From Paenibacillus alkaliterrae (GTDB taxonomy: Bacteria; Bacillota; Bacilli; Paenibacillales; Paenibacillaceae), in assembly GCF_021532375.1 (NCBI RefSeq), contig NZ_JAKGAP010000032.1, forward strand, positions 1-64,000: a DNA stretch of 64,000 nt. The letters run 5' to 3'. Every line of letters starts with the position of its first letter. Within the stretch, counting starts at the first letter, position 1. The position numbers and the translations under genes are program-made. Under the pieces are notes generated by a model. The model saw nothing but the letters and a program-made list of their open reading frames with translations. It ran no database searches and was not told the DNA's origin. This document shows positions 5,573 to 25,327 of this stretch, one piece after another.

Positions 5573-8500
5573 AATATCAATTGTTCTTCCTCCAAAGCTG
5601 AGCTGCAGTGTCACACTGATTGGATCAACCAGCAGATGATAGCCGCCTTTGGCAGCAGTAGCTGCCGCAAGCTTCCTTTCCTGCTCTGAAGCTTTGACAA
5701 TTGATGCGCTCACCTTAATGTCAGCTAATACGGCCTCGTCGCCAAACGGTTTAATGGTCTTATTCCAATCCTTGCTTCCTTGTATCGGAAATATGCCATA
5801 TTCAGTATGAACAGTCAGACTTGAACCTTTTTTACTTAGCAGCATCAAGTCCGGGACGGATAGGCCATCAAGCCTTACATCGCCTTCTTCCGGGACGTGA
5901 ATGGTCAGTTTATGGCTGCTTCCTTTTCCAAGCAGCTGCTTGAGCTTATTCGCATCCACCGTAATCTTAGTCAACGCGCCCCCAGCCGTTTGCTCGGTTT
6001 TGCCGACTGCGAAGGTCACCTCTATCCCGTCGATATGGGCAATAATCTTCCCGTTATCTGAGGTTCCTTGGCTCGGAGTGTCGCCGCTATCACCACCCGT
6101 TCCCTCGCCCGGGATGCCGTCACCCCCTTCCGCCGGAGGCGCAATTTCCACAAGCGTCCATTTTTGCGCCTCAAAATCATTGCGCTCCCACATCTGGACA
6201 GCGGTTCCGTCCTCGGTTCCGCCGTTAACAATATCGAGAGCTTTGCCGCTATTGGCCGCGACGAAAGCAAGTGTACCGTCTTCATTCGCCGGCATTGTCC
6301 ACCGTTGATTGTCATAGCCGAAATTACGCAATATTTGGACGTGCGAGCCGTCATCCGAGCCGGATGCGTTAAGGACTTTGCCGCTTACGGCTCCGCGGAT
6401 CGTATAGCTGCCGTCTTCATTCGGCTCGACATACCACTTTTGGCTGTCCGCTCCGGAATCCGTTCGGATTTTAACGTGAGCGCCGTTTGATGCATGGTCA
6501 GCCTCAAGCACTTTTCCGCTGCCCGGATTTACGATTTTGTAGACGGGCTCCTGCTTCGGCTCGCCGATCAACGCGAACACATTTTGGTAATAGGCTCTGC
6601 CGCCGAACGCGTTTAACCCGAAATACCCCCGGCTGAACGTGACGTCGTTCACGTCAATAACCGGCTCGGCGCTGTCATCGAAATAAATCTTTATGCTCGA
6701 ACCATTCGCAACGATCTTGACGTTATAGGTTTTGCCCGGCATGACGAATGCCGGCACCTTCGCGAGCAATTGGTCATCATGGAACGATCCGTCATCCTTA
6801 TAAAATAACCGCAGCGATTTCATATTCGGATCGATGTTAAAATAATACCCGCTTGAGCCGTCCGCATTGGCGCGAAACAGCATCGATGCGGCTCCCCCGG
6901 CCGGATCCAGCTTCACATCCGCCTCGTAAGCGAAGTTGCGCGCGCTATCCGCCGACATATAATGTGTATCCTTATCGAACATGCCGGCAATGCCGTCCGA
7001 TGTCGTCAGCCATTGTCCTTTTGACGCCGCTTTCCACCCGGACAGGTTCGTATGGAATTCACCTGCTGTTACGACTGTTTCACCGACAATACCTCCATCC
7101 TGTGTTGCCGCCGTAATAACAGCTCTGCCCTCGCCGACCGCCGTCACCGACGCGCCGCGGGAATCCGCAGCGGAAACGGCTGCTACCGCAGTATTGCTGG
7201 AGCTCCATAATAGTTCCTTATTATTAGCCGTGTAAGGCCGTACAGAAGCATATAGCCTGTGTGTCTGACCAACACCAAGCTCCAGCTTGCCGAGATCCAT
7301 GACAACCTTAGCAGGTGACTGGCCCCCAGCCATTTCATCACGCCATATATTCGACAACGGATAGACGTTTAGCGAAACGACTTTTACGTTTCCGTCCTTA
7401 GCGTAGAAGCTCATGCCATCTCTAGCTGCTCCAGGAAAGATCAAGCTGGAAATAACGGCTTCTCCGTCGTTTCCAAATACCTCTACCGACGATTTGTCAA
7501 CGAAAATACGCATTTGGATACGGTTATTCTCATCAGGAGTAAGGCTCGCTGCTTGCTCAGGCCTGAATAGCTCCGTAAAGTCATTCCGGCCAGCCTCGGA
7601 TCGATCGACAAACAGGCTTGCTGCACCTTGCTGATAACCGACGATCGTCTTTTGTCCGCCAAGCTCACGAACGGTGAAGCCGAATTCCGTTGCTGCATGT
7701 TGTGCAGGCAGCTCCAGATCTGCCACGATTTCATAAGCAGTACCCGACAGGCCAGCAAGCAAATTCCCGCTGCTTGGCGTTACGGTCTCATTGCTCCAAG
7801 AGTCTGCGGCTCCCCGCAACGTTTCAAGCTCGACGACCGGCTTTTGTACGAGACGAACGTCCCCATTGTCATTTTTCTTAAGCTTCAGCTCCCGCGGTAC
7901 GGACATTTGACCCTTCCAAGGAGAGGTTGGGAAGCTGAACGGATAATCCCAGTTCGACATCCAACCGATCTCCACTCTGCGTCCATCCGGCATATCCGCA
8001 AATGTCATAGCTGCATACATATCTCTTCCACTCTCGTATCTCAATACGGTTTCGGCCGGATTGTCGCTGGTAAAGCGCTGCCCGTCAAAGCTGCCGATAA
8101 AATATTCCGAATCGGAGCCGTTCGTCTCCGCCCTTGCTCCGGTACTGAAGAGGAGCACCCACTTCTTCTCTCCATCGACGTATAACGGGAAGAAGTCCGG
8201 ACATTCCCACACACCTCCGTTATGAACGTAAGCTCCGTACCCGAACGAATCAATCGCCGTCCAGTCAAGCAGGTTTGTTGATTTGAAGAAGCGAATATGA
8301 TCGCCGCCAGACACGACCATTACCCACTGGTTATGCTCCTCGTCCCATACAACCTTCGGATCGCGGAAATCCCAGCCCGCGCCCGCACCGCCGATATTTT
8401 CGATAATGGGGTTTCCATCATGAAACTCCCATGTACGTCCTTTGTCGCTGCTGTAAGCAACGCCGATTTTCTGATTGCCGTTCCATTTGTCCGGATTGAA

Positions 8501-10913: not shown

Positions 10914-12407
10914 TTACCAAATCGAACTCAGTTCCCATGCATCCAACGTTTCGATAACGGCCGACCCGCCGCGGGCGAAGAACTTGATCCCCACGTTAGC
11001 CGGATCCGGGTAAAGCCGGTTCGTGATCACGATACGGCCGTCATTCGCAAACAATTCGACCGAGGACCGGTCGATGAACAGCCGCAGTTGTACGCGTCCG
11101 TCCGCCGCAGGCTGCAGCGGCGCTGCGCTGACTCCGCCATCGCCCGCTCCGCCAAGATTTCGGTCCATATAAAGCTTTTGCTCCGACTTGGCGTAACGAA
11201 TCTCCGTGTATGACGAACCATCCTCTGAGCAGCGAATCCGCAGTCCGAACTCCGAAGCATCTGAAGAAGACATATCGAACACTGCGATCAGTTCTAACGA
11301 ATCGCCGCGAACGCCGGGTATTTCGACGAAACGGCCTTCATCCAAGGTAAGATCCGCTGCTGCGGCATGCCGGCCCCGCAATGCAATCAATTCCGGCACC
11401 GGATTGCTCCGGAGCGATCCGTCCGCTGCAAGCGTCAGCTCGCGCGGCAGCGTCATCGCGCCAAGCCAGCCATGCGCCTGCTCCGGCATCGTTGCGCCCC
11501 ATATGTTCATCCATGCGATCATGATTCTTCTACCCTTGTCGTCCAATAGCGATTGCGGCGCATAGAAATCGAAACCGTAGTCTATTTGCTCAGCATATTG
11601 CTTATCAAAGCGGCAGCTTTCGTAATCGAATGTTCCCGACAAATACAAGTTTTTGACCGGCGCTATATTCATTGGGGAAATAAGCAGAACATGCTTATCC
11701 GCATCCCCGATCGGGAATAAATCCGGGCATTCCCACATGTCACCCATCGAGCCGTCGCTTTCCGCCGCAGCGCCTGCAAATTCCCACTTCAGCAAATCGC
11801 AGGATGTATAAACAATCGCTTTTCCAATGCCGTCTTTGCCATAGCCGACTACCATATACCACTTGCCGCCGCGCTTCCATACCTTCGGATCGCGGAAGCC
11901 GAAGCGCTTCGCATCCGGAGAATCGCCGATTACCGGGTTTGCCGCATATTTATCGAATATCACGCCGTCCTTGCTCGTCGCCAGGCACTGTACCTCTTCC
12001 GGCGTTTTTCCGTCAACATGCCCCGTATAGATCAGCGTCAAGGTTCCATTGTCGTCTACCGCACTGCCCGACCAGCAGCCTTGCCCGCCATCACCGCCCT
12101 TGTCATACTCCTCGGATGGCGCGAGCGCAACCGGAAGATGCTCCCAGTGGACAAGATCCTTGCTCCTAACATGTCCCCAGTGCATCGGCCCCTGCTTCGC
12201 TTGATACGGGTCATGCTGGTAGAACAGATGATAATCGCCGTTAAAATGAATCATTCCGTTCGGGTCATTCATCCATCCGGCCGTCGGCATAACGTGGTAA
12301 TGCAGGCGGAACGCGGCATCCACGGCGTTTCTTTTCTTTAATAGCGCTTCATCGGCTTGCGCGATGAACGCTTGATGCTTGCTATGCTTGTTTGTCGTAT
12401 GCTCCAT
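10914..12407 (-). CDS. GH32 beta-fructosidase (sucrose/sucrose-6-phosphate hydrolase type), cytoplasmic
   Basis: A 497-residue GH32 enzyme with no signal peptide. Catalytic motifs are complete: WMNDPNG (nucleophile Asp), FRDPK (transition-state stabiliser) and MWECPD (acid/base Glu), followed by the C-terminal beta-sandwich with VQLRLFIDRSSVE. It would split sucrose, sucrose phosphate or imported fructo-oligosaccharides. ATG at 12405-12407 is chosen because AGGTG lies six bases upstream; the GTG at 12416 is too close to any ribosome site. It follows the second importer on the same strand and is probably part of the same transcript. The next gene downstream is the levanase. Confidence 0.93.
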   Translation of the reverse strand: MEHTTNKHSKHQAFIAQADEALLKKRNAVDAAFRLHYHVMPTAGWMNDPNGMIHFNGDYHLFYQHDPYQAKQGPMHWGHVRSKDLVHWEHLPVALAPSEEYDKGGDGGQGCWSGSAVDDNGTLTLIYTGHVDGKTPEEVQCLATSKDGVIFDKYAANPVIGDSPDAKRFGFRDPKVWKRGGKWYMVVGYGKDGIGKAIVYTSCDLLKWEFAGAAAESDGSMGDMWECPDLFPIGDADKHVLLISPMNIAPVKNLYLSGTFDYESCRFDKQYAEQIDYGFDFYAPQSLLDDKGRRIMIAWMNIWGATMPEQAHGWLGAMTLPRELTLAADGSLRSNPVPELIALRGRHAAAADLTLDEGRFVEIPGVRGDSLELIAVFDMSSSDASEFGLRIRCSEDGSSYTEIRYAKSEQKLYMDRNLGGAGDGGVSAAPLQPAADGRVQLRLFIDRSSVELFANDGRIVITNRLYPDPANVGIKFFARGGSAVIETLDAWELSSIW

Positions 12408-12485
12408 GTAACTCACCTACCCTTGCATGCGTTTTTAATTATGCCAAACGGATTGCAGCTCCATTCTTGCCGTATATAACGATAC

Positions 12486-12528: not shown

Positions 12529-13884
12529 TTATTGAGTCAAAGTAATTTTAATGCCTTCCTCAAGCATGCTTTTTGCAGCAGCCGCGAACGTTCCGACTGG
12601 CGTGCCGTCCTTGATGCCGGTCAAAGCAGCCGTGTTCGCATCCCAGTACTTCTCGACGCCGATTGGCGCGAACAGGATTTTGCCCCCGAGCTCGTTCATT
12701 TGATCAACCTTCTCTTGACCAAATTGCTTCACATTGTTTTCCGCAGCAACCTTAAGCTCGTTTTCGGACATCATCTTGATGAATTCAGCGGCGCCTTGCG
12801 GGTTTTTTGATACCGTCGGGATCGACCAGCCGGACATTCCGCCCGGACCGACATCCTTGGTGCCTTTAGGCCCTGTCGGAACCGGTACGAAATCGATCTC
12901 GTAATCGCTTTTGAATACCGTGAAGCCGCCGAAGCCGTATTCTGCCGTCATGGCCAGCTTGCCGTTTTTGAACTCCGCATTGAAGTAGTCGCCTTCTTTG
13001 TCTTTATCGATATATTTATCTTTCAAAAGCGCGTCTTGCGTGAACTGCATCGCTTCCTTCACGTTGTCGGACTCATAATTCGATGTGATGGAACCGTCTT
13101 CCTTGTAGGAAAGAAGCGTCAAACCGTTGGAAGCAACCATCAGAGGATAGCCTGCATCCCACCAGCCAAAGCCGTATTGATCGTTTTTGCCGTCGCCGTC
13201 CGTATCCTGCGTAAGCTCCAGCGCAGTCGAACGGAATGTTTCCCAAGTCCAGTTGCCTTCGCTGTAAAGCTCGCCCGGCGATTTTACGCCATTGTTATCG
13301 AACAAGGTTTTGTTGTAGTAGATCACGATCGGAGCCGCGCCTACGCCCGCTGCATAAGGCTTGCCGCCGAATGTGAATGCGTTCGTTACCGAAGCGTTCC
13401 AGAACCCGTCCGTCATATCCATGTACTGATCAAGCGGCTGCACGATTTTTTTCAAAGGATAGACAGGGAAGTTCTGATCGTTTGCTTGCGCTACGTCAAC
13501 CTGGTCGCCTGCGTTTACCATCGAAATTAGCGTTGACTTTTGATCGCCCCACGGCACTGCGATTACGTTTACTTTACCGCCGTAAGCCTGCTCGAATTGC
13601 GGAACCGTTTCCCATACCGCGTCATAAGCGGCAGGGTTTGCCGCTTTATTTTCATCGTATTGCTCTTTGGATGTATGGTATAAGATCGTAATATCGCCGT
13701 TTTCCAGCTTAGGCGCTTCTTCCTGTGCTTCTTCTATTGCTGCCGGCTTGTTGCCGGTATTGTCAGCAGAGCCTTCATTTGTTTTAGTGTTGCCGCCATT
13801 ATTGCCGGAGCAGCCGGCCATTACCGTGACGATCATCATAACCGCTGCAATCATAACTGCCATTGATTTCATTTTTTTAACCAT
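12529..13884 (-). CDS. Sugar-binding lipoprotein of an ABC importer (fructan locus, set 2)
   Basis: A 451-residue family-1 solute-binding protein. The lipoprotein signal runs MVKKMKSM...TVMAGCSGN with the acylated Cys in MAGC at about residue 24, then an Asn/Gly/Thr-rich spacer. The body has the usual WETVPQFEQAYGGKVNVIAVPW start, WTWETFRSTALEL hinge region and GPGGMSGWSIP near the end. It would capture fructo-oligosaccharides or sucrose outside the membrane and pass them to the two permeases encoded upstream (14001-15884). Gene order permease-permease-binding protein is reversed from the commonest order. The ligand is inferred from the neighbouring GH32 genes. Confidence 0.9.
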   Translation of the reverse strand: MVKKMKSMAVMIAAVMMIVTVMAGCSGNNGGNTKTNEGSADNTGNKPAAIEEAQEEAPKLENGDITILYHTSKEQYDENKAANPAAYDAVWETVPQFEQAYGGKVNVIAVPWGDQKSTLISMVNAGDQVDVAQANDQNFPVYPLKKIVQPLDQYMDMTDGFWNASVTNAFTFGGKPYAAGVGAAPIVIYYNKTLFDNNGVKSPGELYSEGNWTWETFRSTALELTQDTDGDGKNDQYGFGWWDAGYPLMVASNGLTLLSYKEDGSITSNYESDNVKEAMQFTQDALLKDKYIDKDKEGDYFNAEFKNGKLAMTAEYGFGGFTVFKSDYEIDFVPVPTGPKGTKDVGPGGMSGWSIPTVSKNPQGAAEFIKMMSENELKVAAENNVKQFGQEKVDQMNELGGKILFAPIGVEKYWDANTAALTGIKDGTPVGTFAAAAKSMLEEGIKITLTQ

Positions 13885-14000: not shown

Positions 14001-14960
14001 TTATTTAATGGCGACATGCTCGATGCTGTCCGTGAAGTAACGCTGCGTAACCAAATAAAGAATGAACAGCGGCAAAATAGCGAGCAAAGCGCCTGCTTGA
14101 ATCCGTGTTACGACGACCAGCGGATCGCTGATCGTTTGCACATTGACGACGGCCTGCAAATCCACGCGAAGCGACGATAGGGCGATGGCGAAGTTTTTCT
14201 TCAAGTTGCCCAGCAGCAGATTCGACATGTAGAACTCGTTCCAATGCCAGACGAAGGAGAAGAGAAACACGGTAATAATCGCGTTCTTCGCGTTCGGAAG
14301 CATAACGGTGAAGAAGGTTTTGAACGGTCCGCAGCCGTCCATATAAGCCGCATCCTCAAGCTCGTTTGGCATCCCTTTGAAAAATTGGCGGAAGATGAAG
14401 ATATATAATCCGGAGCGAAGCCCCATGCCAAGCATGGACGGCAGGTAGAAAGCCCAGTAGCTTCCGACTAAGCTCACCGAGTCCGGTCCGCCGGTCACCA
14501 TGGAAGTAAGCTTCATGATGCCGAAAGCATCGAAATATTTCATGTCCGCGTAGAGCGGCAAAATGATGGTCTGGACCGGCACGACCAGCGTCAGAATAAC
14601 GAGCGTGAACAGCAGCCCCGAGAAACGGAACTTGAATCTCGCAAAGCCGTAAGCGACGAAGGCGCATGATAATACGTCCAGGAGGCCGCAGCCGATGCCG
14701 ATGATCATGCTGTTTTGCAGCGCATCCCAGAAATCCATGACGCGCAGCGCGTCGGCGAAATTGCTGAGCGTAAAGGTTTTCGGAACCCAGATGACGCTCG
14801 GATCCATCGCTTCCTCCGGACGGCGGAGCGCCATGCTCAGCATATACAAGAGCGGATACAACAGCTGATAAGCCAGTGCCGCCAGAAGAGAAAAGCGAAT
14901 AATGGAAGTCAGTGTCTTCCGCGCCCGTTTCATCTGCTTTTTCTGAATGATTGCGTTCAA
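14001..14960 (-). CDS. Sugar ABC permease, MalG-type (set 2)
   Basis: A 319-residue membrane protein with six predicted helices and the MalG-type EAA loop (EDAAYMDGCGPFKTFFTVMLP), which contacts the ATPase. The start is TTG at 14958-14960 after a GCGGGGAA ribosome site; the next in-frame ATG (27 bases on) lacks one. It lies 21 bases after the MalF-type partner. Together with the binding protein at 12529-13884 it forms an importer lacking its own ATPase gene. Confidence 0.92.
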   Translation of the reverse strand: MNAIIQKKQMKRARKTLTSIIRFSLLAALAYQLLYPLLYMLSMALRRPEEAMDPSVIWVPKTFTLSNFADALRVMDFWDALQNSMIIGIGCGLLDVLSCAFVAYGFARFKFRFSGLLFTLVILTLVVPVQTIILPLYADMKYFDAFGIMKLTSMVTGGPDSVSLVGSYWAFYLPSMLGMGLRSGLYIFIFRQFFKGMPNELEDAAYMDGCGPFKTFFTVMLPNAKNAIITVFLFSFVWHWNEFYMSNLLLGNLKKNFAIALSSLRVDLQAVVNVQTISDPLVVVTRIQAGALLAILPLFILYLVTQRYFTDSIEHVAIK

Positions 14961-14981: not shown

Positions 14982-15884
14982 TTAATCCTGCATGTAGACG
15001 ATGCGTTTCTTGAGCAGCATGTAGACAGCGCCAAGGAACACGGCGATCAACAAGCAATACAGCCACGCGAGCGCGCTGCTGTAACCGAACCTGACCTGCG
15101 AGAAAGCCGTGTTGTAAATCATCAGAATAACGCTGTTGCCGTAATCCGTGAACGTGTCGATAATGGTATAAACGATATTGAGCAGCATCATTGGCGTCAG
15201 CATCGGCAGCGTTATTTTCCAAAATTGCTCCCAAGGTCTCGCCCCTTCGATCGAAGAAGCTTCGTACAAATAGCCCGGTATGGCATGAAGGCCTGCCAGA
15301 AACAGCAGCACCTGCACGCCGGACCGCCACGTCAAATCGAAAATACGGGAAATGACGTTATTGAAAATTTCAATGAGCTGCGCTCCCAGGCCAAGCTCGT
15401 TCAAGATACCGTTAATCCCGGCACCCGTGAACAAATACACGCTTTCCGCCCCGCCGCGCATCCCTTGCGAGAATACATCCTCCTTCAAAATTTGCATGAG
15501 CACGCCTGAGGCGATAATGACCGGAAGGAAGGAGACGGCACGCATAAATCCTCTGCCCCGGAACTTGTTCTTCAGCAGCACGGCCACGAACAGGCTGTAC
15601 ACCAGAATAAGCGGAACGCCGTAAAGCATGTTGACGAAAGAATTCGTCACTTCTCTAATGAAAGCCGGATCCTTGAACAGCGCGTACTCAAAGTTGTCCC
15701 AGCCGATGAATACGCCGCGCAGCCCTTCTGGCGTCATCTCCAAGTTTTGAAACGAATAGAGGAGCGACGTGAATAACGGTTTGGCGAAAAACAATATAAA
15801 GCCGAGTATCCAAGGAAGTACGAATAGAAAGCCGTACAGCTCTTTTTTCTTCGTATATGGCAAAGCCCGTAGTTGTCTGATCAT
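14982..15884 (-). CDS. Sugar ABC permease, MalF-type (set 2)
   Basis: A 300-residue inner-membrane permease. The first helix follows TKKKELYGFLFVLPWILGF, and the EAA loop reads EASSIEGARPWEQFWKITLP. It starts at ATG 15882-15884; its AGGGGGTGA ribosome site overlaps the stop codon of the DUF5696 gene, so translation of the two is probably coupled. This ties the second importer to the upstream cassette and argues for one long transcript from about 24.9 kb. Confidence 0.92.
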   Translation of the reverse strand: MIRQLRALPYTKKKELYGFLFVLPWILGFILFFAKPLFTSLLYSFQNLEMTPEGLRGVFIGWDNFEYALFKDPAFIREVTNSFVNMLYGVPLILVYSLFVAVLLKNKFRGRGFMRAVSFLPVIIASGVLMQILKEDVFSQGMRGGAESVYLFTGAGINGILNELGLGAQLIEIFNNVISRIFDLTWRSGVQVLLFLAGLHAIPGYLYEASSIEGARPWEQFWKITLPMLTPMMLLNIVYTIIDTFTDYGNSVILMIYNTAFSQVRFGYSSALAWLYCLLIAVFLGAVYMLLKKRIVYMQD

Positions 15885-15895
15885 GCGTTCACCCC

Positions 15896-18118
15896 CTAAC
15901 GGATGAGGTAGCCCAGCGCCGGAATGCTTTCAGCGCCGACGGCAGCCATCTCATTGTTGTAATTGACGACGGCTGTCTTGCCGTTCTCGAATGTCGTGCG
16001 ATATACGCCTTCTTGCAGCTTCTCATGGTTCGTAATCGCACGCCCCATCACCTCGCCTAGCGCTTCGTTCAAGCTGTCGTATTGTTCAGTCATATCTCCG
16101 TACAGCAAGTTGAAATCCGCGCTGTAAAGCGAGTCGTATTCGGTATTCGCAAGCAGCGCGGAATCTCTCGCGATAAACCGGTAGGCCGGATAAGTGCCTG
16201 TTTCAATCAGCTTCAGCAAATACCGCTGCGGCATGCTCGAGAGGTTAACAGGCTCGCTATAGGCCGGTATAAGCCCGCTTAACGCGATGCTGTAGAACGG
16301 AACGGCTTCATCCTCCGTATCGAATCCGCTGGAGAAAAGCGGCACATCCGACAAGCTTTCCGCATAGGGGAAGGCGTAAGCGTTCGGGTGATCGAACATC
16401 AAGCCTCCGAGATTGCTTTGGCCTTTCTTGAGACCGCTCTCCCATGCCGTACCGGTTGCGTTCTTAGGCTGGCTGTCTCTGCGAAAATCGGAATAAATGA
16501 TCGACCCTACCGTTTGCAGCGAAGCATACTTTAGGCCGCCCTTCGCTGCGGCAGCGGTAAACCGGTCGACCGCTTCGTTCACCGACTCCGGCTTCAGCAA
16601 ATACCAGCGCTTTAAATCTTTGTTTTTCACACGGTCGCTTAACCGGTAATCATACTTCAGCGCAGGAGCGCGGCTGATTCCTTTCGCGGCGTCCCAAAAC
16701 TTGCTAAAGCCGTTGCCGCCTTCATACAGCTTGACGGGGTCGGCGGCAGGGTAGAACTTGACACCCTTAGCCTCCAGCTCCTTCGCCAGCGTCTTAAAGC
16801 CTTTGTTTCCGCCAAGCTTGCCTTCCGCGTCCAGCGATACCGGAATTTCATCCTTTGCGCCGCCCGCCGTCCAGCCTTCCAATCGGACGGATAAGTTTGC
16901 GAAGCCGTCGCCGAGCAAGCGATCCGCCGCTTTTCCCGCATCCTTGAATGAGGTCAGCACCTCTACGGTGTTATAGGGAACACCAAGGAAGGTTGCCTTC
17001 TTCTTCACCCCTCCTACAAAGTCGACTAGCAGCGGAAGCTGCTTCTCTCCTGTTGCTCCTGCCTCAGCAGCCGGCTTCACGCCCAGCTCATTTTGCAAAT
17101 AGCTGCGGTACTTGCCCGCCATGCCTGCATAATCGGCTTCGTCTCCATTCAGGAAATAATAGTTGACTGCATAGGCAGCGCCGCCCGTCATGGACTGCGA
17201 GGAACGCGTTACCTGCTTCTCGTTAAGCGTGCCTTCAAGCAGCAGGTTCGTTTCGAACTCCATCATGTTCAAATAACTGAAGACGTTATTATATTGGTTG
17301 TTTTTGCGGCTTACTTCCGCCGTAATTCCGGCTTGGTAAGCGCCTTTATGAATGACGGCGACGAAGGCCGAATTATCCTTCTTCATTCCGAATACCGGCA
17401 GCCTGACCGTTTCCTTCTGCTCCATCTTGCTGGGCAGGTCGAGCGATTGGTCTTGGCCGTATACCCTTTCGTTATAGCTTTTGTAGATGCTTTTGTTATT
17501 GTTGAAGTTGATTAGCGCCCCGCTGCCGTCGGGCACGAATAAATAACCTTCGTTCGCCGCTCCGGCTGCTCCGAAGAAAGGCAGCAGGCTTATGTTCACG
17601 AGCTTGAACTTGCCGGCCTGCTTCATTCCTTCCGTTACGATCGATGCGGAGAACGCATCGCCGCTTAACGTGTACCTTACCGGCACCGTAAAGCCCGCTT
17701 TCGGAAATTCGTACGTCACTTCGATTCCGTTCTGCACCTCAGTCCATACGGGCTGTGTTTCCTTCACGCTTCCCGTAAAGCTATTCAATTGAAACGGCTT
17801 GTTTTGGTCATCCACGTAATCCAGCAGCAATTGCGCTGAAAGATCCATTTTTTTGGCCCCTTTGGCCAGCTTATCCGCTTCCCGGTCGACTGGATTGCTC
17901 GTCCAAACGGCTCCTGACACCTTATCGGTCACCGTAATCTCAGCCGTTTCCGGGTTGTAGTCAAGCGCAAGTCTGCCTGTGTCGGCCGCTCGGACAAGTC
18001 CGCCGCCATTCGCTGCGCTCTTTGTCTGATTCGCCGCGAAATTTACTTCAATCCCGCCGGTTGCGGTTATAACAAGCAGCATAGCCGCCATGAAGGCCGT
18101 CCATAATCGTAAGTTCAT
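15896..18118 (-). CDS. DUF5696 protein, exported, probable barrel-type enzyme of unknown activity
   Basis: A 740-residue protein starting at ATG 18116-18118 (GAAAGGGGAAGG before it) with a signal-like N-terminus (LWTAFMAAMLLVITATGG). An upstream extension to 18259 would run into the YIP1 gene and is rejected. I recognise the DUF5696 family, common in Paenibacillus next to sugar importers. The N-terminal third looks like a beta-rich domain (RLALDYNPETAEITVTDK, VWTSNP). The middle has repeated barrel-like strands (LPLLVDFVGGVKKKATFLG, NLSVRLEGWTAGG, KFYPAADPVKLY). No catalytic residues can be assigned. Position in a fructan locus suggests a role in glycan processing at the outer membrane face, which is inference only. 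Confidence 0.8.
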   Translation of the reverse strand: MNLRLWTAFMAAMLLVITATGGIEVNFAANQTKSAANGGGLVRAADTGRLALDYNPETAEITVTDKVSGAVWTSNPVDREADKLAKGAKKMDLSAQLLLDYVDDQNKPFQLNSFTGSVKETQPVWTEVQNGIEVTYEFPKAGFTVPVRYTLSGDAFSASIVTEGMKQAGKFKLVNISLLPFFGAAGAANEGYLFVPDGSGALINFNNNKSIYKSYNERVYGQDQSLDLPSKMEQKETVRLPVFGMKKDNSAFVAVIHKGAYQAGITAEVSRKNNQYNNVFSYLNMMEFETNLLLEGTLNEKQVTRSSQSMTGGAAYAVNYYFLNGDEADYAGMAGKYRSYLQNELGVKPAAEAGATGEKQLPLLVDFVGGVKKKATFLGVPYNTVEVLTSFKDAGKAADRLLGDGFANLSVRLEGWTAGGAKDEIPVSLDAEGKLGGNKGFKTLAKELEAKGVKFYPAADPVKLYEGGNGFSKFWDAAKGISRAPALKYDYRLSDRVKNKDLKRWYLLKPESVNEAVDRFTAAAAKGGLKYASLQTVGSIIYSDFRRDSQPKNATGTAWESGLKKGQSNLGGLMFDHPNAYAFPYAESLSDVPLFSSGFDTEDEAVPFYSIALSGLIPAYSEPVNLSSMPQRYLLKLIETGTYPAYRFIARDSALLANTEYDSLYSADFNLLYGDMTEQYDSLNEALGEVMGRAITNHEKLQEGVYRTTFENGKTAVVNYNNEMAAVGAESIPALGYLIR

Positions 18119-18149
18119 GCTGCCTTCCCCTTTCTGATCAACGTTCGCT

Positions 18150-18782
18150 TCATAGGCGGAACAGCAATTCGTTGTAAATCGTATAGATGAACACGTACAC
18201 CTGCTGGAAGAGCGTGTAGAAAAGCACCGCCAAAAAAATAACGATCCCCATAGCCGCAAATGTCAACGCAAACGACTGCAACGTTTTGACCGCGCCGTAA
18301 TCATGGATGGTCAGCATGCCGATAAACATCAGCACCGCGCTCCAGATCATCGCGACCGTCGTTATATAGCCCAGAAACATGCCTTCCTCTTGAACAAGCG
18401 CCTTACTGAGCAGCGTAGAGAGAATGATGGATGCCACGTAAGGAATTAATGCATAGGCGCTGACGATTCCAATCTGAACCGCTTTGCCCTCGCCGTCCAT
18501 CCACGTTGCAACCGCCCAGTTGCCCGCCACCCAAAGCGCATACAGCACAATCGTTTTCGCTGCGATCAGCCACACGTTCAAAGCGCTCAGATCGGCCAGG
18601 TTGAATGTATAACCGGTGCTCTGCCGCTTAAAGACGGCAGCGATGAAAAAAACGAGAACGATGAAACAAGATGCGAGCACCGAGCCCTTGCCCTCCTCCT
18701 TGACCGAATAAAAACCGTCAAAGGGATGAAGCAGGCAGCTTAAAGGATTCAACTTCTTGCTGGAAGCGGAAGTTGCACTCAT
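18150..18782 (-). CDS. YIP1-family membrane protein
   Basis: A 210-residue polytopic protein with about five hydrophobic helices (GSVLASCFIVLVFFIAAVF, LIAAKTIVLYALWVAGNW, AYALIPYVASIILSTLLS, YITTVAMIWSAVLMFIGM, ALTFAAMGIVIFLAVLFYTLFQQ). It matches the bacterial YIP1 family pattern (HPFDGFYSVKEEGKGS). The ATG overlaps the stop of the preceding NHL gene (ATGA at 18779-18782), showing translational coupling. Function is not known. Repeated association with binding proteins and DUF5696 suggests that it helps assemble or regulate a membrane sugar-uptake complex (inference). Confidence 0.82.
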   Translation of the reverse strand: MSATSASSKKLNPLSCLLHPFDGFYSVKEEGKGSVLASCFIVLVFFIAAVFKRQSTGYTFNLADLSALNVWLIAAKTIVLYALWVAGNWAVATWMDGEGKAVQIGIVSAYALIPYVASIILSTLLSKALVQEEGMFLGYITTVAMIWSAVLMFIGMLTIHDYGAVKTLQSFALTFAAMGIVIFLAVLFYTLFQQVYVFIYTIYNELLFRL

Positions 18783-20248
18783 CGGTTAACCTCCCTTCGA
18801 CTCTTGTGCCTTGCCGCTCTAACGCCCTTGCAGCCGTAATAGCCAGCCAAAGCGCAGATGAAAATCGTCATGATGATTGGCAAATTATCCCGCACCGCCT
18901 GCATCCTGATTTGTCCGAACGTATCCGAGTAGCCGGAACGATCCGTTCCCTGCCGGTAATAGACCAGCGCCTCGCCGTATTTCCCTGCCTTCTCGAGCGC
19001 CTTCGCGATCCCGGTATAAGCGATGCTGTTATTGGCATTCCTCTTGGCCACGTCTTCCCAGATGACCGCCGCTTCCTCGTAAAGCCCTTGGTTGTACAGC
19101 ACGGTTGCTTGACGGACAAGGCTTCCATATTCCGAAAGCGCGAACCTCGTTATATTGCGTTTCGTGGAATCGAGTACGAGCATTTCGCCCTTCCAATACG
19201 ACACGGCCGACGGCTGCAGAAATGTCCCCTTCTGATTGCCCAGCGAGCCAAACACTGCGATGGGGTTGCCTTCCGAATCGTATTCGAAGACGCGTCCCCG
19301 CGTCCGGTCAAGTCCTGCAATGAAGCCGTCCGCGTCTATCGTCAAGTCGATAAACGAGGTATCCTGCTTTACCCCTTGCTTGAACGAAAACTCCTTGTCG
19401 CCGAAATCTGCCGCTCCTTGCTTGCCCGTCAAAACGTTGTTGCCAAGCGGGTTCAGCTTCTTTATCTCTTCCCGCGAATTTTTGGAAATGATCGTCGTGG
19501 TGTAAACAAAGTTGTCTTTACCGATCTCTAGGTTCGAATATTCAATAGGCAGCAGCTTCATCATGGCCGCCCGCTGCTCTTTCGACAGGATGTTTTTCCA
19601 AAAAGTCTCCATCACGACGGCCGGCGTCACTTCAACCCGGTTGCTTCCGAAATAACCCGTAAATTTTCCTTCGCTGTTAAACTGCATCAAGCCGTAAAAC
19701 TGACCTTCCGACAGCACGTATATCCGGCCCGCATTGTCAGCGGCCACTTTGGTCGGCTTGAATGGAAAACCTTCCGGTATGAGCGGATCGCTCGGCTTCT
19801 CGATCACGAGCTCTACCTGCTTATCCGCATTAACGCGAAGAATGCGGCCGTTATCCTTGTCTGCTATATACATCGTTCCGTCATCGGAAACGAACAGTCC
19901 CATTGGCGTCGCCAGCGTCGTTTCTTTGCCGTCCCAATCCAGCTTGTCGATGATGTCAACCGTCTCAAACCTGTCGTTCAGCTTAACGATTCGTTTATTG
20001 CCGGTGTCTGCGATGTAGATCGCGTTGCTCTTATCGACGTACAGATCCTGCGGCTCGCTGAACAAGCCGGCTCCAAGCTCCAGTCCCGTATAGGACTGCT
20101 CCGGCAAATAGCTTGCTGGAGCCGCTTTCGATTTATCCCACTCGTTATATACATAAGACTGGTAAGGCGCTTCGGCCTTCACCGTTAACGGCGCTGCGGC
20201 CAAAACCGGGAGAAGCAGCGCGGCAGCAAGCACGATTTTGATTTTCAT
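18779..20248 (-). CDS. NHL-repeat / TPR exported protein with a C-terminal membrane anchor
   Basis: A 489-residue protein starting at ATG 20246-20248 behind AAAGGAGGGGCC. It has a signal peptide ending near VKAEA (about 26), NHL propeller repeats (FSEPQDLYVDKSNAIYIADTGNKRIVK-like units, about 60-370), a short TPR stretch (YNQGLYEEAAVIWEDVAKRN and YGEALVYYRQGT, 385-440), and one membrane helix near the end (LPIIMTIFICALAGYY) followed by a basic tail. The propeller would face outside and could bind glycan or protein. It overlaps the next gene by four bases. Exact role unknown. Confidence 0.82.
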   Translation of the reverse strand: MKIKIVLAAALLLPVLAAAPLTVKAEAPYQSYVYNEWDKSKAAPASYLPEQSYTGLELGAGLFSEPQDLYVDKSNAIYIADTGNKRIVKLNDRFETVDIIDKLDWDGKETTLATPMGLFVSDDGTMYIADKDNGRILRVNADKQVELVIEKPSDPLIPEGFPFKPTKVAADNAGRIYVLSEGQFYGLMQFNSEGKFTGYFGSNRVEVTPAVVMETFWKNILSKEQRAAMMKLLPIEYSNLEIGKDNFVYTTTIISKNSREEIKKLNPLGNNVLTGKQGAADFGDKEFSFKQGVKQDTSFIDLTIDADGFIAGLDRTRGRVFEYDSEGNPIAVFGSLGNQKGTFLQPSAVSYWKGEMLVLDSTKRNITRFALSEYGSLVRQATVLYNQGLYEEAAVIWEDVAKRNANNSIAYTGIAKALEKAGKYGEALVYYRQGTDRSGYSDTFGQIRMQAVRDNLPIIMTIFICALAGYYGCKGVRAARHKSRREVNR

Positions 20249-20268
20249 GGCCCCTCCTTTTACCTCCA

Positions 20269-21138
20269 TCATTTGATCCCTGCGAAGGTCATCGTCTCTA
20301 CGACCTTGCGCTGCAGCAAAATAAATACGATAATCGGCGGGATCATGAGAATGACCGCGGCAGCGGCACCTGCCCCCATTCTCGCGATGGGGTCGCCCGC
20401 CACGATTTGCTCAAGCGCCATACGGAACACTTTTAGCGACTCGCTGAAAATCAGTTCTTTCGGCGCGGAGTTCCAAAGATTTATGAATTGAAAAATAACA
20501 ACCGTCATAATGGCTGGCGTTGAATTCGGCCAGATGATCGAGAAAAACGTTTTGAACTCGCTTGCTCCGTCGATCCGCGCCGCTTCCAATATCGCGTCCG
20601 GCAGCTGTTCGATGAACTGCTTCATCAGGAACAAGCCAAGTGAAGCTCCGATCCAAGGCAGAATCAAGGCAGCGTACGAGTTCACGATGTCGAGTTGCGA
20701 CATGAGCACGAATTGCGGAATGAACGTCACCTGCGGCACGAACATAAGCGCCATTACGATGATGGAGAACAGGATGTTTCTGCCCGGAAACTTGTGCTTC
20801 GCCAGCGGATAAGCGGCCATTGCCGCAAACAGCACGTGCAACACCGTACCTAAGATAGAAATAAATGCCGTGTTGAGAATGTAACGCGACAGCGGGACCC
20901 ACATATTCGATGCCAGCTGAAACAAATCCGTAAAATTATTTAATGTCGGCCTCATTACGATCAGCCTGGGCGGGAACTGAAGCAGCTCGTCGATCGGCTT
21001 CAGCGCAGTGATAATGGCGAATAGAAACGGAAACGCTGAAAACAGACCGAGAACCGCCACGAATCCGAATATCGCGATGTTGCCGGCAAGCGAGCGTCTT
21101 GCTTTGATGCCGGATTTTTTTGTAGTTATTTTGAACAT
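20269..21138 (-). CDS. Sugar ABC permease, MalG-type (cassette set 1)
   Basis: A 289-residue permease with six helices and an EAA loop (EAARIDGASEFKTFFSIIWP). It starts at ATG 21136-21138 after CAGGAGGAC. It pairs with the MalF-type protein 16 bases upstream and with the large binding protein before it. Its stop is 20 bases before the NHL gene start, consistent with one polycistronic message. Confidence 0.93.
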   Translation of the reverse strand: MFKITTKKSGIKARRSLAGNIAIFGFVAVLGLFSAFPFLFAIITALKPIDELLQFPPRLIVMRPTLNNFTDLFQLASNMWVPLSRYILNTAFISILGTVLHVLFAAMAAYPLAKHKFPGRNILFSIIVMALMFVPQVTFIPQFVLMSQLDIVNSYAALILPWIGASLGLFLMKQFIEQLPDAILEAARIDGASEFKTFFSIIWPNSTPAIMTVVIFQFINLWNSAPKELIFSESLKVFRMALEQIVAGDPIARMGAGAAAAVILMIPPIIVFILLQRKVVETMTFAGIK

Positions 21139-21154
21139 GCATGTCCTCCTGCGA

Positions 21155-22054
21155 TCAGATTCCGACCTTCTGCAATATTTTCGTAACGAGCCGGTTCGTG
21201 AATACCATCATGAAGAACAAGACGACCGCCATCGCGGATGCATAGCCCATCTCGTAACGGATACTGCCGTAATCCATAATGTGGGTAACCATCGTTTCGC
21301 CCGCGTACTCCGTGCTCGGAAACCCGGCAAGCTGTATGGACACGTCAGCTACGCTGAACGATATAACGATCTGCATGACCGCCCCGAATATAAGCTGCGG
21401 TATCATCGAAGGCAGCGTAATGTACCATAGCTCCTGAAACCGGTTCTTAATGCCGTCCATCACTCCCGCTTCGTACAAGCTGCGGTCGACGGTTTGAAGA
21501 CCGGCCACAAACGCCAGGAAGCTGATGCCAAGACTCATCCACAGCTGCACAACGATCAGAATGAGCAAAATATACTCTTTATCAATCAGCCATGCGACGG
21601 GATCGCTAATGATACCGAGACCCATCAGCATCCCGTTCAAGTAGCCGTAAGCATCCGGGCTGAAAATCAACCGCCACATCGGGAACACCGATACACCGAT
21701 AATGGTCGGGATATAGAACACGGTCGTCGCGATCGAGCGAAGCGTCCGGGACAAATCGTTAATCATCCAAGCGACCAGGAAGCTAAGCAAATAGCTGACC
21801 GGGCCGGTGACGAAAGCGAAGAACATTGTGTTTTTGAGCGCAATGATGAAGATGTCGTCATCCAGAAACAACCGGATATAGTTGTACCAGCCAATGAAGC
21901 GCGGCGGCTCGATCATGTTGTAATAAGTAAATCCGAGCACGATCGACAAGGCGACGGGAAGTATGGTGAAGAGCAGAAAGAAAATCATGAACGGAGTCAT
22001 CAATAAATAACTTTCCTTATGTCTGCCGATGGTCCGGATTAACGGTTTGTTCAT
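21155..22054 (-). CDS. Sugar ABC permease, MalF-type (cassette set 1)
   Basis: A 299-residue permease beginning at ATG 22052-22054, overlapping the stop of the binding-protein gene in an ATGA. The EAA loop reads EAGVMDGIKNRFQELWYITLP. The first helix (SYLLMTPFMIFFLLFTILP) is typical of MalF-type subunits. Works with the MalG-type protein at 20269-21138. Confidence 0.93.
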   Translation of the reverse strand: MNKPLIRTIGRHKESYLLMTPFMIFFLLFTILPVALSIVLGFTYYNMIEPPRFIGWYNYIRLFLDDDIFIIALKNTMFFAFVTGPVSYLLSFLVAWMINDLSRTLRSIATTVFYIPTIIGVSVFPMWRLIFSPDAYGYLNGMLMGLGIISDPVAWLIDKEYILLILIVVQLWMSLGISFLAFVAGLQTVDRSLYEAGVMDGIKNRFQELWYITLPSMIPQLIFGAVMQIVISFSVADVSIQLAGFPSTEYAGETMVTHIMDYGSIRYEMGYASAMAVVLFFMMVFTNRLVTKILQKVGI

Positions 22055-24891
22055 TGCTCCACCCCGAATTCATACCTTTTTCGTTTGATTTCTTCATTGA
22101 TGTCCTTGTTCCAATAGAAGAGGCTCTCCCTTGCGTTACCCATTTGGAACACGACTTCGCGAAACGCATTATCGATGTTTCTTGACGTATAGTAGCCTCC
22201 CGGCAGCTCCGGAATTTCTTTCACCTGATCCCATTGCTCGGAGAGCATAGCCTGCTCCGCGCGGCTCCAGTTCGTTGATTCGAAGGCAACCAGATTGGCC
22301 GGCACTCTTCTGCCAAGAACGCCCATCTCATTTTCCAGCTCGCTGACGAATTTGCTTTGCGTCTCCGCTTCATTCCACCATTTCATAAACGCCCATGCAT
22401 CATTCACATTGGAAGCATCCTTCAAAATGATGGCTGCCGTGCCGGTCGCTCCCGTCGAGCGGTCGATCGCACCGTCCGCTTGCTTCGTCCCCGGGATCGG
22501 AACCATATCCCATGTACCCGTAATTTCCGGCGCTGCGGCTGCCAGGCGGGTATACAGCTTATAGCTGGAAACGACGATCGGCATTTCACCGGTGCGGAAC
22601 CGGTTAAAGTCATCCTTATAAAGCGGATAGTCGTATAAGTTATAGAAATCGGTCCATTGCTTGAAGGCTGCATAAGCCTGCGGCTCATCGAAGCGAGTGC
22701 CGTCCTCGCCCGCGTTATAGATGCCGCTTCCGCTTTGCATAAGCAGCGTCGGGAACAAATTGAGCGAGCCGATCCCTTTCGTCAGAAGCTGGAAGGCGTC
22801 CAGGTTCTCGTAAGGCAATCCAATTTGCATATTGTTGTTTTGCAGCACCGGAGCGACTTGGAGCAGCTCCTCCCACGTTTGCGGCGGCTCGATGCCAAGC
22901 TCCTTCAGAACGTCTTTTCTATAAAACAGCATGAAAAATTCCTGATCGTCCGGAATGGCGAATGTTTTTCCCTGGTACTGATAAGGAACGAATGCAGAGT
23001 CTGTATACTCGCTCTTCATGGGCTCGAATTCACTGAACTGATCAAGCGGGGCAAGCGCACCGCGTACAGCCAAGTTCATCGCGTCGCCGCGGCTGGTGAA
23101 CAAATTGACATCCGGTCCTTCACCCGCCATAACGGCGGTAACGAGCGATGTGCCGACCAAATTCAGATTGACGCTAATTCCGCTCTCCGGCGTGAACGAC
23201 TCATCGATCAATCGCTTCAAGACGTAAGCTTGGTCGCGGCCGAGACCGGTCCATACTTGAATCGAGCGCTTCGCCTCCTCGTCCCCTTCCATCGAATCGT
23301 AATTTTGCAGGAAAGAGCCTGCGAATGCGCGTATTTCATGTATGCTTTGCGCGATGATGCCGGCTTCCGCCTTCGGCTTCCCATAATCCGGCGATGCGAT
23401 ATAGAGGTAATCGAGCTTCAGCGGCTGCTTCTTCGCGCTCAGCATCCAATCGGCTAAAGCGGTGATATTCGTTTTATAGTTTTCAAGCCGCTTCGGAATT
23501 TGGTCCGGCCGAGCAATGAAGCCGTCCAGCTGCAAGGCAAGCAGACTTAGCGTTCTAGAGCCGGCGTTCGCCTGCCCTGACATCTCATCCAGCTTGCTTG
23601 CTTCACCCTTCAATTGAGCGGAAAGCGTCTGGAACTGCCCGATTAATCCAGGAACGCTTTTATCGATCTCATAATCGCGGTATACATCCGGGTTTACGCC
23701 CGTAATCATCACGATTTTGCGATAAATTTGGTTAAGGTCGTACACCATCTGCTGAACGCTTTGCACGGCTGGAGCCAGATCGCCTAGCGTCACCTCGAGC
23801 TTCAGCTCATGCTCGCCCTTTTCCAAGTAGAACAGGTAAGGCTCGCCCGTCTCTTCGCCCAGCTCCTTTATGGCCCATTTCAGCTCGTACGGGAAACGAA
23901 CCGCGTTCATTTCTTCGAATGGCGCTTGGCCGTCCAATAACATTTTTCTGGAAACGAATGAGCCCTTTACTTCGTTCTGGTGATAGCGGGCGCCAATTTT
24001 GTACCACCCGTCCTCGGGCGCTTCGAACTTCCAGCTAATCCATTGTCCGGGAATGTCCCAATTGTCGCCGCCGATTGTATTGATCCGAAGCTGGACCGGA
24101 CTGTATGGCGCGGTTAGCGGCGACTTTTTGTCGGTGGTAGGAAATAGGCCTGAAGCCGACTTCGCGTACGCATGCTCCGCTTGAACCGGTACAAACGCTT
24201 CGCCGCCCTTCTTGCCCAAAAACTTTTCAAACGACGCTTTATACGCTGAATAAGATGCTGCTTCGTCAACCTTCGATAATCGAATGTAATCAACGACCGC
24301 AGCCTCTCTTACATTTTCCAGCCGGATCACATGCTCGCCCTTCGTAAGCGCCAGCTGCAATGGTCCATCTTCCATTTCGCCCGCTGCCGCAACGACTGTA
24401 TTCAGCCAAACCTCGCCTTCCAGCTGTTTGGGACGAAGCTCGTTTCCGCCGCTCTTCCTAAGCGGTCCCGGCTCATCGTAGAACAGGCGGTTAAGCTCGA
24501 AGGGCGCATACGGATCGGAAATCGCTTTGCCGTCGACGTAGAGCAGGAACTCGATCGGCTGCCCGTTTCCTTTGAGCGGATAGTAACCGACAGACAGCTC
24601 GTAGCTTGCCTCGTCGGCAATATCAACCGTCCACGCGAGCGTTTCTCCTTCCTTCCACTCCGCGGTTTTTTTCCTTCCTTCCCATTCAGGAAGTATAGCC
24701 GCATTCGCCAGCGATCCGTTCATGCTGCCGGCATTCAATATAATGCCGCCGGACGGACGCTCCGCATCCGACAGCTTGTATATGACCGCTTCAGCGGTTT
24801 CTTCCTCGGAATAGGAGAAAACGGCTGCCGCGCCTATCGTTACGATGAGAAGCGAGAACATCACAGTGTAAAAAATCCAATTTTTATTCAC
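22051..24891 (-). CDS. Fused sugar-binding protein: two carbohydrate-binding-like domains plus family-1 solute-binding domain
   Basis: A 946-residue protein. Start GTG 24889-24891 has GGGGG six bases before, better than the TTG at 24897. Residues 5-28 form a membrane anchor without a lipobox Cys. About 40-210 looks like a CBM35/galactose-binding sandwich (ending AAVVDYIRLSKVD), and about 235-385 is a second similar one (GQWISWKFEAPEDGWYKIG ... KGEHELKLEV). A helical spacer follows, then from about 545 a full solute-binding fold (SIQVWTGLGRDQAYVLKRL ... AGEGPDVNLF ... WAFMKWWNEAE). Ordinary binding proteins have about 430 residues, so the extra domains are notable. It may hold long glycan chains while passing fragments to the permeases (inference). 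Confidence 0.88.
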   Translation of the reverse strand: MNKNWIFYTVMFSLLIVTIGAAAVFSYSEEETAEAVIYKLSDAERPSGGIILNAGSMNGSLANAAILPEWEGRKKTAEWKEGETLAWTVDIADEASYELSVGYYPLKGNGQPIEFLLYVDGKAISDPYAPFELNRLFYDEPGPLRKSGGNELRPKQLEGEVWLNTVVAAAGEMEDGPLQLALTKGEHVIRLENVREAAVVDYIRLSKVDEAASYSAYKASFEKFLGKKGGEAFVPVQAEHAYAKSASGLFPTTDKKSPLTAPYSPVQLRINTIGGDNWDIPGQWISWKFEAPEDGWYKIGARYHQNEVKGSFVSRKMLLDGQAPFEEMNAVRFPYELKWAIKELGEETGEPYLFYLEKGEHELKLEVTLGDLAPAVQSVQQMVYDLNQIYRKIVMITGVNPDVYRDYEIDKSVPGLIGQFQTLSAQLKGEASKLDEMSGQANAGSRTLSLLALQLDGFIARPDQIPKRLENYKTNITALADWMLSAKKQPLKLDYLYIASPDYGKPKAEAGIIAQSIHEIRAFAGSFLQNYDSMEGDEEAKRSIQVWTGLGRDQAYVLKRLIDESFTPESGISVNLNLVGTSLVTAVMAGEGPDVNLFTSRGDAMNLAVRGALAPLDQFSEFEPMKSEYTDSAFVPYQYQGKTFAIPDDQEFFMLFYRKDVLKELGIEPPQTWEELLQVAPVLQNNNMQIGLPYENLDAFQLLTKGIGSLNLFPTLLMQSGSGIYNAGEDGTRFDEPQAYAAFKQWTDFYNLYDYPLYKDDFNRFRTGEMPIVVSSYKLYTRLAAAAPEITGTWDMVPIPGTKQADGAIDRSTGATGTAAIILKDASNVNDAWAFMKWWNEAETQSKFVSELENEMGVLGRRVPANLVAFESTNWSRAEQAMLSEQWDQVKEIPELPGGYYTSRNIDNAFREVVFQMGNARESLFYWNKDINEEIKRKRYEFGVEQ

Positions 24892-24922
24892 GGCCAACCC
24901 CCGAATTCGTTTTTTCCGCGCT

Positions 24923-25247: not shown

Positions 25248-25327
25248 TAAATGCGATCACCTAATCGTTCTTCGCAAGAAAGTGATAGAAGAAACTATTC
25301 ATATGAAAGGCCTTGCTCCACAACGTT

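Follow-up and report, generated by a model that had tools for sequence, protein, structure and literature searches.

Two predicted ABC importers and a DUF5696 protein in a conserved, hydrolase-associated gene cassette of Paenibacillus alkaliterrae and other Gram-positive bacteria

Introduction

What are an NHL propeller protein, a YIP1 membrane protein and an exported protein of family DUF5696 doing among the genes of a carbohydrate importer? The question is raised by a 64,000-nucleotide stretch of the Paenibacillus alkaliterrae genome (positions 1 to 64,000 of contig NZ_JAKGAP010000032.1, assembly GCF_021532375.1; hereafter the window), in which genes for these three proteins lie in close linkage between permease genes. 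To our knowledge, NHL, tetratricopeptide repeat (TPR) and YIP1 domains have no role in transport, and the capture and import of large plant glycans by Gram-positive bacteria is less well understood than the SusC/SusD (SusCD) route of the Bacteroidota. A first interpretation of the DNA (the sequence-only reading) took six of the genes for one glycan-capture machine. The surveys below support one conserved, co-inherited unit, but its nine genes include a second pair of permeases and a further binding protein. We propose, at a probability of about 0.45, that its products form a machine of Gram-positive bacteria for glycan uptake through two importers, in which the DUF5696 protein of the window's group, found beside genes for GH32 glycoside hydrolases, would be held by a scaffold and act as a glycan presenter.

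A nine-gene unit with a conserved order

The unit in the window occupies 12529-24891 (Table 1) and consists of a long solute-binding protein (long SBP), a first permease pair (permA, permB), the NHL-TPR, YIP1 and DUF5696 genes, a second permease pair (permC, permD) and a second binding protein (SBP2). The six genes that the sequence-only reading had coupled at 15896-24891 are all present there on the minus strand, and its three ATGA overlaps (long SBP/permA, permB/NHL and NHL/YIP1) and its absence of gaps over 35 bases were confirmed, the remaining spacers being 16 bases (permA/permB) and 31 bases (YIP1/DUF5696). Genes and linkage thus stood, while the extent did not: permC, permD and SBP2 follow DUF5696 after gaps of 11, 21 and 116 bases, and a single six-gene operon is rejected because these three are linked too. 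A promoter and terminator scan of 10400-25600 showed no excess over shuffles (11 versus 13.4 and 17 versus 18.4) and was uninformative on co-transcription. For DUF5696, the ATG at 18118, preceded by the ribosome-binding-site-like AAAGGGGAAGG, appears better placed than the TTG at 18259 that begins the mechanical open reading frame (ORF); the NHL-TPR gene possibly starts at ATG 20248.

To examine how widely this arrangement is shared, we compiled 100 loci in the window's order, spread over 25 genomes (94 fetched DUF5696 rows above 430 bits plus the six of P. alkaliterrae itself). Twelve weak rows of 20-50 bits were left out of the table of relatives, in which 25 of 40 genomes, P. alkaliterrae included, have a full-length DUF5696. 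Gene-order profiles were built from these 100 loci, and two further sets of 80 and 19 loci served as the independent test; the order pattern allowed one unassigned frame at the YIP1/DUF5696 or DUF5696/permC junction, or an SBP2 at the latter. The order long SBP, permA, permB, NHL-TPR, YIP1, DUF5696, permC, permD, all on one strand, was found in 97 of the 100 loci, and the three exceptions (L043, L116 and L120) lie on 6-10 kb contigs and end at contig borders. P. alkaliterrae has six full-length DUF5696 genes, all in loci with the eight-gene order. At four of them NHL and YIP1 are one fused gene, a fusion that recurs at 42 of 99, 23 of 76 and 11 of 19 loci in the three sets. An ATGA overlap joins DUF5696 to permC in 65 of 99 relatives. 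In 92 of 180 loci the long SBP is preceded, at a distance of at most three genes, by an SBP2-type gene, and in 74 such a gene lies downstream of permD; four loci have one on both sides and 18 on neither.

A contig scan with the motif [VI]PDGSGALI gave at least 588 confirmed DUF5696 relatives, of which 80 were analysed (all 80 for gene order, 76 in alignment A3, and 65 of their 69 long SBPs in alignment A4). Nearly all belong to the Bacillota, including Paenibacillus, Cohnella, Lederbergia, Halalkalibacter, Gracilibacillus and many metagenome-assembled genomes (MAGs) titled Lachnospiraceae, Oscillospiraceae or Clostridia; a single MAG is titled Anaerolineaceae, for which a binning error is possible. 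The full order is present in 68 of the 80 loci, and 11 of the remaining 12 are truncated by contig ends. In two loci, L181 (not contig-limited) and L183 (contig-limited), permC and permD are separated by two frames.

Among 398 evenly drawn Bacillota genomes (at most three candidates scored per genome), a DUF5696 match over cut-off was obtained in 39 and a near full-length one in 37, P. alkaliterrae included, while the control genomes Thermotoga maritima and Lactococcus lactis gave only weak matches below cut-off. The 19 diverse loci, hand-chosen from these 37 genomes, show more variation: the full order is kept in 11, a rotated one (NHL-YIP1, DUF5696, permC, permD, followed by the long SBP and permA) is seen in three (L243, L245 and L246), permB is split in one, and in four the stretch analysed holds the core but no long SBP, permA or permB. 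Among the last four, enzyme genes replace the three missing genes in L248 and L249, and the other two are limited by contig ends. The permB of L251 (5962-8821) lies in two pieces around a 167-aa ORF.

Core and partner module

Copy numbers divide the cassette into two parts. NHL and DUF5696 are equal in number in 38 of 40 genomes, seven of which have neither, the mismatches being G012 (5 versus 4) and G252 (17 versus 20, contig-end pieces included; such pieces are also counted among the DUF5696 rows of G211). The six cassettes of P. alkaliterrae account for every Yip1 domain (six) and every strong NHL match (six) of the genome, and the only NHL-profile matches outside them are two weak, adjoining ones. 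The DUF5696, YIP1 and NHL genes, which the sequence-only reading would have been wrong to join had they mostly occurred apart, are therefore linked in this genome, and NHL and DUF5696 nearly always agree in copy number elsewhere. Counts of the long-SBP N-terminal domain equal those of DUF5696 throughout the window's order (28 of 28 genomes) and, outside it, in 7 of 12 genomes. Because NHL and DUF5696 copy numbers agree, Yip1 and strong NHL matches are confined to cassettes in P. alkaliterrae and long SBPs are sometimes fewer, the tight core is NHL-YIP1-DUF5696-permC-permD, and long SBP-permA-permB forms a partner module whose presence is constant throughout the window's order. Five genomes of 2.2-3.0 Mb (G252, G211, G233, G304 and G334) have 8 to 20 DUF5696 rows and only 4 to 10 long-SBP rows; in these the core has been amplified without its partner importer.

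Flanking hydrolases and probable substrates

Genes flanking the cassettes were clustered, with one representative of each cluster named by Pfam. The clusters comprise GH32, GH43-CBM6, GH10, GH30_2, GH26, GH106, GH38, GH51, GH76, GH29 and other enzymes, ATPases of ATP-binding cassette (ABC) transporters, and regulators. The type of hydrolase tracks the DUF5696 subfamily for GH32, GH10, GH26, GH30_2, GH38, GH43 and GH106 (0 of 1000 shuffles for each, host relatedness being ignored): similarity of DUF5696 within a type is 0.643 for GH10, 0.607 for GH30_2, 0.578 for GH26, 0.536 for GH38, 0.515 for GH32, 0.510 for GH43 and 0.440 for GH106, against 0.32 at random. GH29 (69 of 1000 shuffles) and GFO_IDH (478 of 1000) gave no clear signal of DUF5696 subfamily. 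The window copy falls in the GH32 group (24 loci, of which eight have a PfkB kinase as well), which makes fructans the likely substrate of its cassette.

Of 180 loci, 31 have a neighbouring ATPase gene, which in 23 of them lies immediately upstream of the long SBP; none was found adjoining the cassette of the window, nor was a directly adjoining regulator identified there. Two flanking families have no Pfam match over cut-off and are candidate enzymes: a 719-aa family (L186:15637-17796) at seven loci, all seven also with GH106, and an 881-aa family (L193:14209-16854) with four genes adjoining cassettes.

Two binding proteins and two permease pairs

The AlphaFold2 model of the long SBP (pLDDT 86.9) contains beta-sandwiches at about 50-210 and 230-368, a helical segment at about 370-530 and a MalE-type domain at about 540-946. 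Only this C-terminal part is matched by SBP_bac_8/1 in Pfam; it aligns with 6dtr (Z 37.3, root-mean-square deviation (rmsd) 2.5, 368 residues), and it fills the match lists of fold searches made with the whole protein. The N-terminal profile matches the cycloisomaltooligosaccharide glucanotransferase 5x7g (E 1.1e-8), in a part that we take to be its CBM35. Among 21 members, Pfam gives N-terminal matches to Golvesin_C in 19 (best E 1.4e-5), to CBM_35 in 11 (best 6e-4) and to CBM_6 in three, the window member matching Golvesin_C alone (E 0.02) and not CBM_35. The two domains that the sequence-only reading had called sugar-binding-like are therefore present as modelled sandwiches, and sugar binding by them is plausible, not proven. 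The window copy has one hydrophobic helix, at 6-24, and no lipobox, so that a membrane anchor of the long SBP appears clear from the sequence for this copy only. SBP2-type genes carry a lipobox-like motif in 162 of 179 cases.

The two binding proteins differ in how they vary with the neighbouring enzymes. Among 78 loci with a single hydrolase label, SBP2 sequences are 65% identical where the hydrolase type is shared and 25% identical where it differs, the figures being 72% and 47% for the SBP domain of the long SBP, 80% and 60% for permA, and 57% and 33% for DUF5696; columns conserved at 90% or more make up 15.6% of the long SBP's SBP domain and 2.6% of SBP2. Because SBP2 diverges most between hydrolase types and is least conserved, it is likely the specificity receptor, and the long SBP more generic. 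The earlier suggestion that the long binding protein holds specific chains is disfavoured by the same identities.

All four permease families carry a loose EAA pattern (168 of 169, 164 of 171, 148 of 180 and 158 of 178 members). The second pair, permC/permD, is the one tied to DUF5696, given the ATGA overlap of permC with that gene in most relatives and the occurrence, in some loci, of the core without a long SBP nearby. Pairwise distance matrices of nine core domains (166 loci) correlate at 0.85-0.96. DUF5696 and NHL correlate at 0.93-0.94 with permC/permD and at 0.86-0.89 with permA/permB, and SBP2 (156 loci) at 0.88-0.89 with DUF5696, permC and permD, at 0.77 with permA and at 0.81 with permB. 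This ranking lends weak support to grouping DUF5696, NHL and SBP2 with permC/permD, since co-inheritance alone yields high values.

The anchored NHL propeller with TPRs described by the sequence-only reading was borne out by an NHL match of E 1.1e-12 and a C-terminal membrane helix, the latter also found in 106 of 111 unfused relatives. TPR matches of the window protein all lie below the cut-offs in the Pfam scan, and a profile comparison upholds both the NHL and the TPR assignment.

The fold and active site of DUF5696

The AlphaFold2 model of DUF5696, built with 77 sequences (mean pLDDT 90.4), comprises a beta-sandwich, a barrel and a C-terminal beta domain. It matches DagB (5opq) over its whole length (Foldseek E 1.4e-34, TM 0.62 by query) and NagBb (5wzn) with Z 28.2-29.0 (rmsd 4.4-4.6, 561-576 residues aligned), the next row having Z 19.4. 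Sequence profiles point the same way (DagB E 5e-11, NagBb 1e-6, and 98.6% in hhalign against relatives of Pfam GH129), and we predict a GH129 glycosidase fold for DUF5696. The protein has an N-terminal hydrophobic segment in 145 of 180 copies and a lipobox-like motif in 48.

Whether the active site is retained is a separate matter. One catalytic residue of NagBb is Asp435; the other we take to be Glu478, and Asp330 presumably contacts the sugar. All 13 GH129 relatives compared (the rows used out of 20 in alignment A5) have D and E at the columns of Asp435 and Glu478. The authors of the DagB study equate NagBb Asp435 with DagB Asp486, state that of NagBb's two catalytic residues DagB keeps only the D435 equivalent, and report that activity needs Asp486 and three further acids, one of them from the partner monomer (PMC5698469).

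In DUF5696 the acid/base place falls on residue 576 in hhalign and in three MAFFT alignments and is D or E in 80 of 180 copies, and the candidate columns for the nucleophile span 533-536, with an acid at 533 in 1 of 77 copies and at 535 in 37 of 180. The window copy reads S533-L534-Q535-T536, without an acid at any of these columns, and has D576. As an ordinary GH129 enzyme it is rejected, its nucleophile acid being absent where 13 of 13 GH129 relatives have D. The GH32-type copies are without an acid at 535/536 in 20 of 24 loci and have one in four, and all three GH76 cassettes are without one; GH10 and GH30_2 cassettes have Arg-Asp at 535-536 plus Glu/Asp at 576. Because the acids at the nucleophile place differ in this way by subfamily, the simplest reading of the sequences is a pseudo-glycosidase in the window's GH32 group, and other subfamilies may hold active enzymes.

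Proposed mechanism and alternatives

In the mechanism that we propose, SBP2 would hand a specific oligosaccharide to the permC/permD importer. An assembly outside the cell, made of the NHL propeller and TPRs joined to the YIP1 membrane domain, would hold the exported DUF5696, which in the GH32 group would bind a chain without cutting it and present it to SBP2, permC and permD; some other subfamilies may cut. Long SBP-permA-permB would be a second importer, usually adjoining the core, whose N-terminal sandwiches would keep the polymer near while its conserved SBP domain would take up a ligand that many glycans have in common, or a shared product. An ATPase of the MalK/MsmX type would supply the ATP; some cassettes have its gene alongside, and for the others we assume a shared one. 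Each cassette copy would be specialised by its own hydrolases, that of the window for fructans. The data show the gene order, linkage, NHL-YIP1 fusion and co-inheritance, the folds as predicted, the missing nucleophile acid of the window copy and the divergence linked to hydrolases; the physical complex, the hand-over, the roles of the propeller and YIP1, and the ligand of the long SBP are inferred.

Several observations weigh against this proposal. The nucleophile column is uncertain, with a gap after 534 in hhalign, 533 in three joint MAFFT alignments and 535 in a plain reading. An acid is present at 535 or 536 in 108 of 180 DUF5696 copies, including D536 in all 16 GH10-type and all 10 GH30_2-type copies, and both 535/536 and 576 are acidic in 35 of 180 copies on a loose count, among them 10 of 16 GH10-type and 10 of 10 GH30_2-type copies, and in 7 on a strict one. 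An N-terminal hydrophobic segment was found near only 55 of 166 long SBPs, by a crude test. In distance, the domains of the long SBP correlate about equally with NHL and DUF5696 (0.91-0.93) and with permA and permB (0.90-0.94). Long SBPs are outnumbered by DUF5696 rows in five of 40 genomes (4/10, 6/11, 10/20, 4/10 and 4/8).

The acids at 535/536, above all D536, also feed the strongest rival, according to which DUF5696 would be a functional glycosidase from a new family related to GH129, trimming incoming chains at the membrane with D536 or with residues other than the GH129 pair. The predicted fold, GH129-like over its full length, fits such an enzyme, and there are acids elsewhere that could serve it (D197 in 180 of 180 copies, E639 in 179, D544 and D603 in 157 each; N625 is likewise present in all 180). 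Moreover, the acids of DagB differ from those of NagBb (PMC5698469), which argues that active sites move within the fold and that the acid/base place is not decisive. Opposed to this are the acid-free nucleophile columns of the window copy and of most GH32-type copies, and no candidate column holds an acid conserved across the family, the column of NagBb D330 itself holding S, T, E, N and others. We consider a working glycosidase rather unlikely.

Alternatively, NHL, YIP1 and DUF5696 could form a module for sensing or quality control that informs the cell of glycan capture, both importers being ordinary. Such a role would suit domains that we do not associate with transport, and regulators are frequent neighbours of the cassettes (AraC-type at 47, LacI-type at 40 and YesM-type at 15 of 180 loci). 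These regulators, however, vary between loci while the trio stays; Pfam finds no signalling domain in the three proteins; and the trio lies inside the transporter genes, with DUF5696 commonly overlapping permC. A sensor module is in our view improbable.

Returning to the two-importer proposal, its predecessor, a single importer complex in which the long SBP captures a specific glycan that DUF5696 and the propeller handle, appears very unlikely: the membrane helix and two sandwich domains of the window's long SBP and the matching long-SBP and DUF5696 counts throughout the window's order agree with it, but the unit holds a second permease pair and SBP2, it is SBP2 that behaves as the hydrolase-tracking receptor, and the core is found without a long SBP nearby. 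Chance adjacency is rejected on the fixed gene order (97 of 100 and 68 of 80 loci) and the agreement in copy number.

Surroundings of the cassette in the window

Table 1. Genes of the cassette and adjoining GH32 genes in the window.
Symbol	Feature	Position	Strand	Match
NS	Long binding protein (long SBP), 946 aa from GTG	22051..24891	-	PF13416/PF01547
permA	CUT1-type permease, first pair	21155..22054	-	PF00528 (BPD_transp_1)
permB	CUT1-type permease, first pair	20269..21138	-	PF00528 (BPD_transp_1)
H	Exported NHL propeller with TPR-like repeats, C-terminal membrane helix	18779..20272	-	NHL E 1.1e-12
Y	YIP1 membrane protein, 6 hydrophobic helices by hydropathy	18150..18782	-	Yip1 (PF04893) 46.9 bits (gathering 28.6)
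U	Exported DUF5696 protein, GH129-like predicted fold	15896..18118	-	DUF5696 650 bits
permC	Permease, second pair	14982..15884	-	UgpA/UgpE-type NCBIfam match below equivalog cut-off
permD	Permease, second pair	14001..14960	-	UgpA/UgpE-type NCBIfam match below equivalog cut-off
s	SBP2, sugar-binding lipoprotein, lipobox MAGC	12529..13884	-	PF01547
	GH32 fructan hydrolase adjoining the cassette, outside the fixed core	10914..12416	-	Pfam
	GH32 protein, 1613 aa, lectin-type domains, probable partner enzyme	5510..10351	-	Pfam

Beyond the larger GH32 gene, after 148 bases, lies a 188-aa ORF with SLH domains (4795-5361), which may be a separate anchor gene or a split-off tail of the GH32 protein, and a transposase gene (2981-4570; DDE_Tnp_1_6, DUF772) is found near these fructan genes. 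On the other side, roughly 1 kb upstream of the cassette (24900-26000) holds no clear intact gene and resembles decayed coding sequence. An ordinary importer at 27002-32392 (SBP and two permease ORFs, with GH130 and DUF1861) is without NHL, YIP1 and DUF5696 and provides an internal contrast. Further along are an AraC-type response regulator, a Cache histidine kinase and an SBP (33922-38698), and a GH32 with a lectin-like domain (44729-47032).

Relation to known systems and significance

Several known systems share parts of this arrangement. Carbohydrate importers of the CUT1 class that share an MsmX/MalK-type ATPase, such as the AguEFG or LplABC type, likewise have an SBP, two permeases with EAA-like loops and mostly no adjoining ATPase gene; the cassette differs in its two permease pairs and two SBPs, with NHL-TPR, YIP1 and DUF5696 between. 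Gram-positive polysaccharide utilisation loci also place importer genes, hydrolases and regulators side by side (regulators, for the cassette, in the relatives), whereas the cassette keeps a fixed transport core while its enzymes are exchanged. From the GH129 and GH129-like enzymes NagBb and DagB, whose fold it is predicted to share over the full length and whose sequence profiles it matches, DUF5696 differs in the missing nucleophile acid of the window copy and in lying always inside an importer cassette in the loci examined. SusC/SusD uptake in the Bacteroidota combines a repeated transport core with outside glycan-binding parts and differing enzymes. The cassette resembles it by analogy only, being of the ABC type, and the Pfam scan gave no SusC or SusD match for any of its parts. 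For Athe_0595-0598 of Anaerocellum bescii (PMC12838199), a single sugar importer locus with two SBPs that differ in range has been described; that locus has one permease pair, and the words NHL, YIP1 and DUF are absent from the main text of the paper.

Among the open-access PMC papers searched, we found none that contains the word DUF5696 or PF18952, and the titles and starts of abstracts given by broader searches held no description of the cassette. As far as these searches go, the pieces are of known kinds, and their assembly, their amplification and the GH129-fold subunit are undescribed. Taken jointly, and tentatively, with the odds against the whole, the cassette may be a distinct Gram-positive double ABC importer whose GH129-type glycan presenter, held by NHL-TPR and YIP1, has lost its active site (kept in some subfamilies), and which has been duplicated and re-targeted to many polysaccharides. 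As part of that same tentative reading it could be, by analogy, a functional counterpart of SusCD in single-membrane bacteria.

A strictly conserved core with three families of unknown role adjoins plant-glycan hydrolase genes of many classes in Bacillales and Clostridia, reaching up to 10 to about 17 copies per genome in some genomes of 2.2-3.0 Mb. For DUF5696 the analysis offers a predicted fold and a testable role, as a presenter in some subfamilies and perhaps an enzyme in others, and it predicts which of two binding proteins sets specificity. If so, the substrates of many unassigned importers would become readable from their neighbouring genes.

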